Source: Methylobacterium sp.
GTDB taxonomy: Bacteria > Pseudomonadota > Alphaproteobacteria > Rhizobiales > Beijerinckiaceae
NCBI RefSeq assembly: GCF_019745455.1
Contig: NZ_JAIETD010000052.1
Location: 1-64,000, forward strand
Reading direction: 5' to 3'
DNA length: 64,000 nucleotides
How positions within the stretch are numbered: position 1 is the first letter of the stretch; each line of letters opens with the position of its first letter. The notes under the pieces are model-generated. The model did not search any database. It saw only the letters and a program-made list of their open reading frames with translations, and was not told where the DNA came from. This document shows positions 35,308 to 38,946 of this stretch, piece after piece. The position numbers and the translations under genes were made by a program.

Positions 35308-37404
35308 TTAGCGGAGGAGCTGCAGGATGCCCTGGTTCGCCTGATTGGCGAGCGAGAGCGCCGAGATGCCGAGCGACTGGCGGGTCGACAGGGCCTGGGA
35401 GTTGGCGGCTTCCTCGTTGAGGTCCGCGTTCGTCAGGTTGGCCGAGCCGGTGTCGAGGATGTTGATCAGGTTCTTCGAGAAGTCCTGACGGTTCTGCACA
35501 ACCGAGAGGTTGGAGCCGAAGGTCGAGGACTGGGCGCGAAGCTGGCTGGTGGCCGCCGTGATGGCCGTCAGCGTCTTGTTGATCTCGTCGTCGTTCTGGA
35601 AGCCGCCGGTCACGGAGGTGAGGCCGAGGCCGTCGGAGTCGAGCTTGGCGCCCGTGATGGTGATGCTCGACGAACCGGTCTCGTTGAAGGTCACCTTCAG
35701 CGAGTTCTCCTTCTCGTCGGTGCCCGAGCGGTACAGCAGGTTGATGCCGTTGTAGCTCGAGTCCTTGGCCTGCTGGGTGATCTGGTTCAGCAGCTCGTTG
35801 AACTGCTTGGCCAGCGACGTGCGGGTCGAGTTGGTCGAGCCGGTGCTGTCTTTGCCCGTCGAGGACACCTCGACAGCAGCGGCAGTCTTCTTCCCGAAGC
35901 CGATATCAATTTCGTCGGCGCCGGTGGTCGTCTGAGCAGCCTGGATCGTGATTTTCTGGCTCACACCCGTCGCAGTCGAGTTGATCTGGAGCTTACCGGC
36001 GCTGTCGAGGCTAGCCTCGACCTTGCCGCTCAGACCCGTATCGGCCTTGAACTGGGTGTTGATCGACGCCACGATCTCGGCAGGCGTGGCATTGGCGTCG
36101 AGAGTACCGCCAGTGCCGCCCTTGAGGTTGATCGTCTTGGCAGGTGCATCGCCGAGCTTGATCGTGAAGGATGCGTCCTTCGGTGTGGAGAAGTCTGTCG
36201 GACCAACCGGTACGACCACAGAGCCGGTGAGGCTCGCCTTGGCCGAACCGTCCGAAGCGTCAGAACCGGTAGCGGAAAGGCCAACAACTGCCGAACCCGC
36301 AGCTCCCACAACAAGTGCGCCAGTAGCAGCACCAGTCGTCACACCAAACCCAACGTCCACCTGAGTATTGCCGGTGGGCGGGGCTTTGACAGCAACGGTG
36401 ATCGACGCGCTGGAGCCGAGGTCCTCAGACGTAAAGCGCAGGCTACCACCGCTGTTGCTGGCGGTGAGCGTCGAATTTGCAGCCTTGAGCTGGACGTTGA
36501 TTGCGTCGGCCAGGTTGTCAGCGGTCGGGCTCGTTCCCAGGGCCGTTCCGTCGGCCTTCAAGGTCGTGGCGTCCAGGGCGATGTCCGTGTTGTTCACGCC
36601 ATCGCTGACGGTGAGGTAGGATCCGGCCGTAGCACTGAAGGTCGTGACAGCAGAGGCGGCACCTGCTGTGCGCGTCGCTGCGGTCGGAGCTGTCGCCGAC
36701 TTGCCGAAGCCGATGTCGAGCGTTGCGTTGGTCGAACCCGAGACGTTGAGCTTCTGCGTAGCACCAGCAGAAGTGGTCGTGAGGTTGATGCGCCCGTCGC
36801 TGCCGAGAGCGGCGGAGACCTTGCCCTTCAGCGTGCTGCTGCCGCTGATCTGGCTGTTGATGGCCGACACAACCTGCTCGCCCGTTACCTTCGTAAGGTC
36901 GCTGACCGAGCCCTTAAGGGTCGAGGAATCAAGACGGATTGTTGTCTTGCTGAGGCCACCATCGAGCGAGATATCGATCGAGCCGTCCTTGGCAAGCGAA
37001 GAGAAGTCGCGAGTGCCGTCGGTGGTGCCGGACTGGAAGGCAACGCTAGCGCTCACTGCAGCTGCCGAAGCCGGCTTGCCGCTGGAGATCGCGCTCTTGT
37101 CGGCCAGCGCCTGGTTGGCCGTGGACTTAGCAGAGTCGACCAGCTTCTGGATCGAGGTGATGCCCTGGTTGGCGGCCTGGATGGTCTGGACGCCGTTCGA
37201 GATGCCGTTGAGGAGCGCGCCGAGATCGCCGGAGCGGCCCGACAGGGCCTGCGAGGTGAAGAAGCTCGTCGGGTCGTCGAGGGCCGAGTTGACCTTCTTG
37301 CCGGTCGAGAGACGGTTCTGGGTGGTGGCGACGAGATCAGCCGTGCCCTGAAGCGAGAGCAGGTTCTGGCGGGTCGCGGAGGTAAGGGTGACGCCTGAGG
37401 ACAT
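35308..37404 (-). CDS. Large flagellin with three Flagellin_IN-like modules
   Basis: 698 residues from the ATG at 37404, with AAAGGA upstream. Conserved D0/D1 ends are clear: the N-terminus with Q-N-R-L-S-T-G-K-K-V-N-S-A-L-D-D-P and the C-terminus with V-Q-N-R-Q-D-F and S-L-A-N-Q-A-N-Q-G-I-L-Q-L-L-R. Residues about 140-545 hold three related modules of about 120-150 residues, each ending near a D-x-G-F-G motif (230-234, 350-354, 500-504) and containing A-I-N/S-I-N-Q-x-K and G-x-L segments. They resemble Flagellin_IN domains and would form a decorated outer surface. No cysteine. Secreted by the flagellar type III system. The usual 300-500 residue length is exceeded. Confidence 0.9.
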   Translation of the reverse strand: MSSGVTLTSATRQNLLSLQGTADLVATTQNRLSTGKKVNSALDDPTSFFTSQALSGRSGDLGALLNGISNGVQTIQAANQGITSIQKLVDSAKSTANQALADKSAISSGKPASAAAVSASVAFQSGTTDGTRDFSSLAKDGSIDISLDGGLSKTTIRLDSSTLKGSVSDLTKVTGEQVVSAINSQISGSSTLKGKVSAALGSDGRINLTTTSAGATQKLNVSGSTNATLDIGFGKSATAPTAATRTAGAASAVTTFSATAGSYLTVSDGVNNTDIALDATTLKADGTALGTSPTADNLADAINVQLKAANSTLTASNSGGSLRFTSEDLGSSASITVAVKAPPTGNTQVDVGFGVTTGAATGALVVGAAGSAVVGLSATGSDASDGSAKASLTGSVVVPVGPTDFSTPKDASFTIKLGDAPAKTINLKGGTGGTLDANATPAEIVASINTQFKADTGLSGKVEASLDSAGKLQINSTATGVSQKITIQAAQTTTGADEIDIGFGKKTAAAVEVSSTGKDSTGSTNSTRTSLAKQFNELLNQITQQAKDSSYNGINLLYRSGTDEKENSLKVTFNETGSSSITITGAKLDSDGLGLTSVTGGFQNDDEINKTLTAITAATSQLRAQSSTFGSNLSVVQNRQDFSKNLINILDTGSANLTNADLNEEAANSQALSTRQSLGISALSLANQANQGILQLLR

Positions 37405-37596
37405 GGTGGCTGATCCTTTTGATCTGGAAGCCCCCTTTTGGGAGCGTCGCCAAAGAACCATGGAGGCGTTGCGAAGCTCTTAAGCCATGACGTCAACGCA
37501 TCCTTTCAATCATCCGTGATTTTTCGCGTCAACAATCGCCAAACTATATTGTTCAACGACTTAGCCACGACACGACTGTCAATTCTTCACCCTTCA

Positions 37597-37604
37597 TTAA
37601 CCAT
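37597..37604 (+). promoter_or_regulatory. CtrA-like half-site upstream of flbT
   Basis: TTAACCAT, 37 bases upstream of the flbT start. This is the sequence of the Caulobacter CtrA half-site. The window has many flagellar genes, and CtrA controls flagellar synthesis in some Alphaproteobacteria, so this may be real. An eight-base match alone is weak. Confidence 0.3.
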
Positions 37605-37641
37605 AAAACCCGATGGTCCGTTTCCAGCGGAGACGAGAGCC

Positions 37642-38058
37642 ATGCCCCTGAAGATCGAACTGAAGCCGTTCGAGCGGCTGCTCATCGGCAATGCGGCGAT
37701 CCGAAACGGCTCGCGCCGGGCGAGCTTCATCATCGAGACGGTGACGAAGTTCCTGCGCGAGAGCGACGTGATCACCGAGAGCGAGGCGGATACCGCCTGC
37801 AAGCGCCTCTATCTCACGCTCACGGTGATGTACCTGTCCGACGATCCCGCTGCGGCCGAGAACCTGTTCATCGCGCAGGCAAGCGAGCTGATGGCGGCGG
37901 TGCCGAGCACGGCGCCCTTCATCCAGGACATCTACAAGGAGATCGAGGCGAGAGAATTCTATCGTGCAATCAAGCGCGGAAAGGAGCTCGTGCAATACGA
38001 AACGAGCCTCGCCGACCGCCTGAACGCCTTGCCCGGCGAACGCGAGGGACCAGCCTGA
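37642..38058 (+). CDS. flbT: Flagellar biosynthesis repressor FlbT
   Basis: 138 residues from the ATG at 37642. The start M-P-L-K-I-E-L-K-P-F-E-R-L-L-I-G-N-A and the segments T-K-F-L-R-E-S-D and L-Y-L-T-L-T-V-M-Y-L are typical FlbT. FlbT binds flagellin mRNA and represses its translation or lowers stability until secretion can proceed. It is divergent from flagellin with 237 bases between, the arrangement expected for a regulator of the neighbouring filament gene. Confidence 0.94.
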   Translation: MPLKIELKPFERLLIGNAAIRNGSRRASFIIETVTKFLRESDVITESEADTACKRLYLTLTVMYLSDDPAAAENLFIAQASELMAAVPSTAPFIQDIYKEIEAREFYRAIKRGKELVQYETSLADRLNALPGEREGPA

Positions 38059-38094: not shown

Positions 38095-38946
38095 ATGCAC
38101 CTAACGTGTGTTGATGCAGCAACGGTCCGTTTCCCGGAACCTCCCGCCATCGCCGGGGAATGGAACGGGGCGGGCCTCGACTCGTCCGACCGTCATCCTT
38201 GGCCCAGTCCGGGAGACGGTCTCATCACACAGTCACGCACCACCGATGCAGAGTTACCGGCGTTCGTCCGGTTTCATCTCGGCGCTTCCCTCAGGGAAGC
38301 CTATACAGACGTGCCCTGGACCCCGTCCGAAAGGGTCACGGAACTTCTCGCGCAGCTCGAAGATGCTCTCGCCCGTGGCGGCGATGCGCAGCTTGCCGCA
38401 GAGATCCGCGTGGGCCTGCAGGAGAACATGACGCTCCTGCACCGCTTTGCCCTGTCGCTGACGAAGAACCCGGGCCGCGCCGAGGATCTCGTCCAGGACA
38501 CGCTGCTGCGGGCTTGGAAGTACAGGCATCAGTTCGTCAGCGGCACCAACTTGCCGGCCTGGCTCAGCGTGATCATGCGCAACACCTTCTATTCGAACCA
38601 GCGCAAGCGCTCCCACGAGGTCGAGGACGGCGACGGCAGCTACGCCGCGCAACTTGTCTCGCTCCCGGCTCAGGGCGGCAGCCTAGACCTGCAGGACATG
38701 AAGGCGGCGATCGCCCGTCTTCCGCCGGAGATGGGTCGAACGCTGACGCTCGTCGCGATCGACAACCTCAGCTACGAGGAAGCCGCCACCGTGATGGGAT
38801 GCAAGATCGGCACGGTGAAGAGCCGGTTGTGGCGCGCCCGCGAGCGCCTCGCCGAGACACTCGGCTACACGGCGGACGATATCGGGCCGGACAAGCTCGC
38901 GCGCTCCGCCCTGTCTCAGGACGGCGATAGCATCCGCGCCGGCTGA
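38095..38946 (+). CDS. EcfG-like sigma factor with N-terminal NepR-like segment
   Basis: 283 residues. Residues about 112-175 are sigma region 2 (L-S-L-T-K-N-P-G-R-A-E-D-L-V-Q-D-T-L-L-R-A-W, then M-R-N-T-F-Y-S-N-Q-R-K-R) and residues about 198-255 are sigma region 4 (L-P-P-E, L-S-Y-E-E-A-A, G-T-V-K-S-R). These are close to the EcfG general-stress sigma family. Residues 60-92 read F-H-L-G-A-S-L-R-E-A-Y-T-D-V, P-S-E-R, then L-L-A-Q-L-E-D, matching the anti-sigma NepR pattern of I-G-x-x-L-R-x-x-Y, V-P-x-R-F and L-L-x-x-L. So this looks like an anti-sigma domain fused to its own sigma. The frame is intact through the junction. The start could be later, but no better codon is seen. Confidence 0.82.
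   Translation: MHLTCVDAATVRFPEPPAIAGEWNGAGLDSSDRHPWPSPGDGLITQSRTTDAELPAFVRFHLGASLREAYTDVPWTPSERVTELLAQLEDALARGGDAQLAAEIRVGLQENMTLLHRFALSLTKNPGRAEDLVQDTLLRAWKYRHQFVSGTNLPAWLSVIMRNTFYSNQRKRSHEVEDGDGSYAAQLVSLPAQGGSLDLQDMKAAIARLPPEMGRTLTLVAIDNLSYEEAATVMGCKIGTVKSRLWRARERLAETLGYTADDIGPDKLARSALSQDGDSIRAG

Follow-up and report, generated by a model that had tools for sequence, protein, structure and literature searches.

A divergent NepR-extended EcfG-type sigma factor of Methylobacterium, and a candidate role for its extension as a NepR mimic in cis

NepR is a small protein that normally restrains EcfG-type stress sigma factors, and PhyR is a sigma mimic; the EcfG (ECF15) sigma factors control stress genes via GGAAC-type promoters. 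Francez-Charlot et al. (2016; PMC4814048) describe a NepR-like N-terminal extension of about 55 residues on the EcfG proteins of Methylobacterium extorquens AM1, propose that it goes back to an ancient ecfG-nepR fusion confined to Methylobacteriaceae, and state that whether the extension adds a feature is “currently not known”. In their work, NepR was bound in vitro solely by EcfG1 lacking the extension, and two-hybrid binding to NepR was limited to truncated EcfG1 (strong) and EcfG5 (weak). Two isoforms of EcfG1, the full-length protein and one without the first 14 residues, both retain most of the extension; each complemented a sextuple mutant, and in vivo each was pulled down together with NepR. 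A mutant of AM1 without any of its six ecfG genes was used in that study. The same paper reports that the four minor EcfG paralogues of AM1 contribute less and that most EcfGs showed no binding to NepR. Two NepR paralogues of AM1 bind PhyR, showed no binding to EcfG and may be anti-anti-anti-sigma factors; a role as PhyR sponge was proposed there for free NepR paralogues. The reviews PMC8103513 and PMC8999054 treat ECF sigma factors more widely and describe regulatory extensions on them, some of which they ascribe to fusion with anti-sigma factors.

The window analysed here is a stretch of 64,000 nucleotides from Methylobacterium sp. (GCF_019745455.1, contig NZ_JAIETD010000052.1). A preliminary description had placed at 38095-38946 a protein whose NepR-like residues 60-92 are followed in the same frame by sigma regions 2 and 4. 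Its coordinates, strand and frame were correct, both sigma regions were found behind the NepR-like segment in the same frame, and the NepR homologue spans residues about 54-92. The features are given below.

38095..38946, forward strand: gene for a NepR-extended EcfG-type ECF sigma factor, 283 residues, ATG at 38095, stop codon ending at 38946
38095..38241, forward strand: N-terminal tail, residues 1-49, unconserved, predicted disordered, pLDDT about 40
38254..38370, forward strand: NepR-like segment, residues 54-92, marked by profiles, conservation and predicted helices 56-71 and 79-94
38419..38613, forward strand: sigma-70 region 2, residues 109-173, PF04542, 53.5 bits, above the Pfam cut-off
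38695..38850, forward strand: sigma-70 region 4, residues 201-252, PF08281, 48.4 bits, above the Pfam cut-off

The open reading frame encodes an EcfG-type ECF sigma factor with a NepR homologue at residues about 54-92. This is a further case of an already published arrangement and not a new one: the fusion seen in the preliminary description stands, and its doubt that such a fusion had been described is answered by the AM1 report (PMC4814048). Like the NepR-extended EcfGs of AM1 described there, the window protein has an ECF15-type core, a NepR-like N-terminal extension of about 55 residues and several paralogues per genome. It is 42.3% identical to the one shown of two places on the AM1 megaplasmid, the replicon covered by the comparison, and it differs from the AM1 proteins in having a longer N-terminal tail. 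In the window protein, 53 residues precede the column of L54; in 59 relatives, with starts set at the last ATG, the median is 20 and the range 1-39. Alignments of the listed relatives to the window protein mostly begin at about residue 33-58.

The sigma core has the EcfG/ECF15 layout, since the Pfam scan placed regions 2 and 4 above their cut-offs and listed no region 3 family. The PhyR sigma2 domain family, PF22029, was also matched, barely (27.8 bits versus a cut-off of 27). In NCBIfam, the top-scoring models were those for ECF-type RNA polymerase sigma factors, whose equivalog cut-offs were not reached (best 181.4 versus 270). Among solved structures, 5uxx_A was by far the best match (140.6 bits versus 70.3 for the next; phmmer E 6.3e-40), and 5uxx, titled RpoE in complex with NepR, was also rank 1 in Foldseek for the window model. 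Thus, by sequence and by Foldseek, the closest solved core is that of Bartonella quintana EcfG/RpoE with NepR. In 5uxx, in contrast to the window protein, NepR forms a chain of its own; since the match already starts at residue 17 of a chain of 164 residues, the construct has no room for a NepR-like extension. The window sigma has its closest relatives among the EcfG proteins and not in another ECF group; the 48-sequence tree described below contains only EcfG-type relatives and is therefore no test of this point.

The sigma gene lies directly downstream of a gene for the flagellar regulator FlbT (37438-38058, forward strand, 115.2 bits), and a 717-residue flagellin-like protein, recognized as flagellin by eye, is encoded on the opposite strand at 35308-37461. 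A search of the 80 named loci for flbT and the flagellin-like gene gave no match at E<=1e-5, and no shared neighbourhood was found; these loci hold up to 4 kb per side, 12 of the 80 being shorter than 8.5 kb, and the same queries do match the window as a positive control. Autoregulation by an EcfG-type promoter was considered and rejected, as GGAAC-N15-18-SGTT does not occur upstream of the sigma gene. The motif occurs five times in the window versus 2.73 expected, and a count this high or higher arises in 15 of 100 shuffles. With regard to horizontal transfer, a search of a plasmid collection gave best places that were all below 60% identity.

Residues 54-92 differ from NepR proper in two respects: they fall below the PF18557 cut-off, and they stand in frame with a sigma factor and so are not a free small protein. 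The Pfam NepR model (PF18557) did not match the whole window protein or residues 1-111 at E<=10, and the window frame was absent from the eight places that it found at E<=10 in the own genome. Residues 46-112 alone gave 12.4 bits (E=0.13), short of the curated cut-off of 25.7. A profile built on 28 NepRs of related genomes gave these residues 13.4 bits and the whole protein 9.4; the profile comprises the canonical 28 of 31 NepR loci, L056, L059 and L066 having been dropped because they failed the motif pattern used for segment cutting. None of 20,000 shuffles of the segment reached 13.4 bits (16,502 scored, best 11.7), nor did any of 2,777 decoys of the same length from the six frames of the window (1,914 scored, best 8.6). 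The profile check on which the preliminary description had staked its claim was therefore better than random, and chance resemblance is rejected on this profile. For 110 other fused sigmas, many of them redundant, the median score on the same profile is 25.45 bits, the lowest being 5.5.

Comparison of the extensions of 59 relatives, excluding the window, with the NepR alignment gave a profile-profile probability of 98.7% (E 2.8e-16, one comparison). When a profile of 31 extensions, including the window, was compared with the PDB, the top three matches were the solved NepR chains 5uxx_B, 4qic_B and 2lfw_B (E 0.0098 to 0.026), followed by unrelated matches at E 0.38 and above; a free NepR of the own genome matches 3t0y_B. 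Pairwise alignment gave a weaker signal than the profiles: shuffles equalled the score against the 5uxx_B fragment in 55 of 5,000 cases, against the own NepRs L001 and L002 in 10 and 1 of 5,000, respectively, and against the own fused sigma L003 in 0 of 5,000. The alignments comprised 24 of 31 relatives (A1), 59 of 79 usable named loci (A2), and 30 of those 59 plus the window (A4); one of the 80 named loci, L146, was left out as an empty protein.

As in NepR (PF18557; 3t0y_B, 4qic_B, 5uxx_B, 2lfw_B), the segment contains two predicted helices and the pattern L-G-x-x-L-R-x-x-Y ... R-x-x-x-L-L-x-x-L-E. It differs from NepR in being part of a sigma factor, in scoring below the Pfam cut-off and in having V81 for the usual F. 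L62, G63, L66, Y70 and L88 are invariant in all 60 aligned fused sigmas, the window protein included, and position 81 is F in 55 of the 59 others. The window protein keeps seven of the eight conserved extension columns, missing F81; of the conserved columns of region 2 it deviates at 4 of 31, and of those of region 4 at 5 of 31. The sequence statistics, the profile-profile comparison and the presence across the genus support a real NepR-EcfG fusion.

This presence was found with two kinds of query. Among the matches listed, the window protein matched all 36 other Methylobacterium genomes from residue 58 or earlier into region 4, and the extension profile matched all 37 genomes of the genus, the own genome included, at E<=1.5e-21 in a frame of at least 252 residues. 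In other families of the order, the profile matched 6 of 24 genomes at E 5.3e-9 or weaker, and we take these matches to be free NepRs. Of the nine Microvirga plasmid records among those listed, seven match from residue 44-58 and two only from residue 115-118. These matches agree with the published limit of the fusion to Methylobacteriaceae if Microvirga is counted in that family.

A maximum-likelihood tree was built from 48 sequences, namely 44 of 79 named loci and four from the own genome; according to a warning from the program, long rows are placed unsurely. The window sigma groups with L077-L081, which are Methylobacterium sp. Leaf117, Leaf125, J-078 and Leaf465 and M. goesingense (support 100/99). 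It stands on a long branch (1.04), and its place in the tree is therefore unsure. These nearest named relatives are 55-61% identical to it over the best segment and 55-56% over the alignment, while identity to the fused sigma L003 of the own genome is 48%. L003 falls in another clade of 14 rows (support 89/86), which we infer to be EcfG1, so that L003 is likelier to be EcfG1 than the window sigma is. The window sigma is a divergent paralogue, and fused paralogues diverge fast. Within L077-L081, the window not included, pN and pS were 0.087 and 0.296 in the extension, compared with 0.016 and 0.262 in region 2 and with 0.024 and 0.316 in region 4; the extension is constrained in this clade, but less than the sigma core.

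The own genome also encodes the partners of the system. PhyR is encoded at the L001 locus (PhyR sigma2 83.9 bits, receiver 43.6 bits), and two free NepRs score 60.3 and 46.5 bits with the Pfam model. At least three sigmas are fused, namely the window protein, L003 and L004, and the sigma search lists at least seven places. L003 and L004 gave 32.3 and 27.9 bits with Pfam NepR in the genome search and 29.2 and 25.7 in a separate scan (cut-off 25.7). On contig C4, a free NepR (L002:1483-1725, reverse strand) has a stop codon that overlaps the likely start of an unextended EcfG-like sigma (L002:923-1486, reverse strand). This sigma, encoded directly after NepR, has no NepR match of its own. The overlap indicates that the own genome keeps an unfused nepR-ecfG pair beside the fused sigmas, on a contig other than that of phyR.

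In the AlphaFold model of the window protein, the extension forms helices 56-71 and 79-94 within stretches of pLDDT 79-90, the sigma helices follow from residue 98 on, and the first 50 residues are below pLDDT 50. Two helices (26-45 and 48-65) also occupy this position in the model of L092, an EcfG1-like relative. Against NepR-bound 5uxx, the window model showed an rmsd of 14.9 Å over about 155 columns (pTM 0.46), and the L092 model was 17.3 Å from the NepR-bound sigma (pTM 0.42). Region 2 alone fits 5uxx_C (1.7 Å over 82 residues, Z 11.4). A PDB comparison of residues 86-258 listed no NepR chain, and that range says nothing about the extension. The single domains are modelled with confidence, while their placement relative to one another (extension, region 2, region 4) cannot be trusted at these pTM values. 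Because of this, and of the lack of fit to the NepR-bound sigma over both domains, the models neither support nor exclude autoinhibition.

The likeliest role of the extension, to which we give an even chance, is that of a NepR mimic in cis that tunes a NepR-extended EcfG paralogue; its docking, competition and tuning steps are conjectural. The window sigma is a paralogue of the NepR-extended EcfG (ECF15) sigmas of Methylobacteriaceae, descended from an old nepR-ecfG fusion. Its two NepR-like helices would cover the surface of regions 2 and 4 that free NepR would otherwise bind, so that the extension would serve as an intramolecular mimic at the face used by free NepR in trans. Free NepR would compete with it for this face, and the extension would tune the sigma rather than block it permanently; in the general stress response, the window paralogue itself may play a minor or a specialised part. 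This reading is favored by the PhyR, the pair of free NepRs and the at least two other fused sigmas that the own genome encodes, by a closest solved core that is bound to NepR, and by the two predicted helices of the extension; against it, the window extension is among the weaker ones (13.4 bits versus the median of 25.45), selection on the extension in L077-L081 is looser than on the core, and the models are not in the NepR-bound form.

An extension lying at the NepR site in cis would explain the hindered NepR binding of the extended AM1 form in vitro and in the two-hybrid assay (PMC4814048). It does not explain the pull-down in vivo reported there, nor does it prove the same for the divergent window copy. 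On the autoinhibited state suggested in the preliminary description, the published AM1 results are mixed. Since both EcfG1 isoforms complemented the mutant and were pulled down with NepR, permanent autoinhibition or a complete block of NepR is unlikely for EcfG1, and the pull-down in vivo further indicates that the extension does not simply exclude NepR.

The cis mimic has to be weighed against other explanations of the same segment. That the NepR resemblance is a matter of chance or of a wrong start, with translation beginning near residue 106, we consider very improbable. The Pfam NepR score is under the cut-off, and by eye no ribosome-binding site is visible in the 40 bases upstream of ATG1, for which reason the exact start of the window sigma is not proven. 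ATG1 is the sole in-frame ATG, GTG or TTG before GTG73; the next are GTG106 and ATG112, and a start after residue 105, which the preliminary description had named as fatal to its reading, would need one of these two available codons. Such a start is opposed by the retention of the extension in relatives, with a homologous extension in 37 of 37 genus genomes, and by purifying selection on it in the nearest clade, while chance is opposed by the 0 of 20,000 shuffles and 0 of 2,777 decoys; moreover, the extension is published for AM1 (PMC4814048). The main rival to the cis NepR mimic is instead that the extension is a functionless or decaying remnant in the window paralogue, whose sigma works, or no longer works, without its regulation. 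The low NepR scores of the segment point this way. In the nearest clade the extension is under looser constraint than the core, and it may therefore be decaying; in AM1, according to PMC4814048, the four minor paralogues contribute less and most EcfGs showed no binding to NepR. We nevertheless regard a remnant as rather unlikely: none of the 60 aligned fused sigmas lacks any of the five invariant residues (L62, G63, L66, Y70 and L88), the extension of the nearest clade has a pN far lower than its pS, and the window protein departs from the conserved columns of the extension at one of eight, compared with 4 of 31 for region 2 and 5 of 31 for region 4.

A different partner is also conceivable. 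The extension might bind phosphorylated PhyR in trans, so that the sigma would be opened directly by PhyR or would act as a PhyR sponge. Such a role is suggested by the NepR homology of the extension, by the two AM1 NepR paralogues that bind PhyR but showed no binding to EcfG (PMC4814048), and by a PhyR encoded in the own genome. The divergence of the window segment speaks against it, and the sections of PMC4814048 considered here report no PhyR binding by a fused extension; we judge this explanation to be distinctly unlikely.

NepR-like segments were also found on other proteins. Among the matches listed, a NepR-like front followed by a receiver, about 200-250 residues in all, occurs in the own genome (L005:1060-1812, contig C14) and in L071, L072 and L073; as whole proteins, L005, L071 and L073 score 22.4-25.2 bits with Pfam NepR (cut-off 25.7). 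The L005 receiver as query matched 32 of 37 genus genomes at E<=1.7e-22 among the matches listed, the NepR part having been read in four. L074 and L075, from related genomes, are about 210 residues long; they begin with a NepR-like segment and continue with a receiver-like region, which by eye looks degenerate. Three hybrid histidine kinases of related genomes, with the order PAS-PAS-HisKA-HATPase-REC-REC, carry a NepR-like C-terminal tail (L068:97-2316; L069:2275-4491, reverse strand; L070:102-2489). They were read as 739-796 residues, and the tail scores 22.4-25.7 bits; scanned as whole proteins, only L068 among these receiver and kinase fusions reaches the cut-off of 25.7. The kinase tail had no match in the plasmid collection. 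Titles and the beginnings of abstracts from a literature search contained no NepR-receiver or kinase-NepR fusion, and a search for the phrase “NepR domain” found it in no paper; we make no claim that these fusions are unpublished. The passages of PMC4814048 considered here make no mention of a receiver.

The NepR tail could tether PhyR to the hybrid kinase. A wider reading, which we hold to be doubtful, is that NepR in Methylobacterium is a mobile docking module on sigmas, receivers and hybrid kinases that docks either on EcfG or on PhyR at its sigma-like domain, with PhyR as the hub and the window sigma as a node opened by PhyR via its own extension. If this were true, PhyR would be read and written by tethered partners, for example by a kinase that holds its substrate PhyR by a NepR tail.

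Our analysis provides statistical backing for a fusion that was earlier noted from alignments, and finds it in every sampled genome of the genus (37/37). The divergent window sigma and the near-consensus L003 of the same genome form a natural pair for asking whether the loss of NepR character frees a sigma factor from the PhyR switch.
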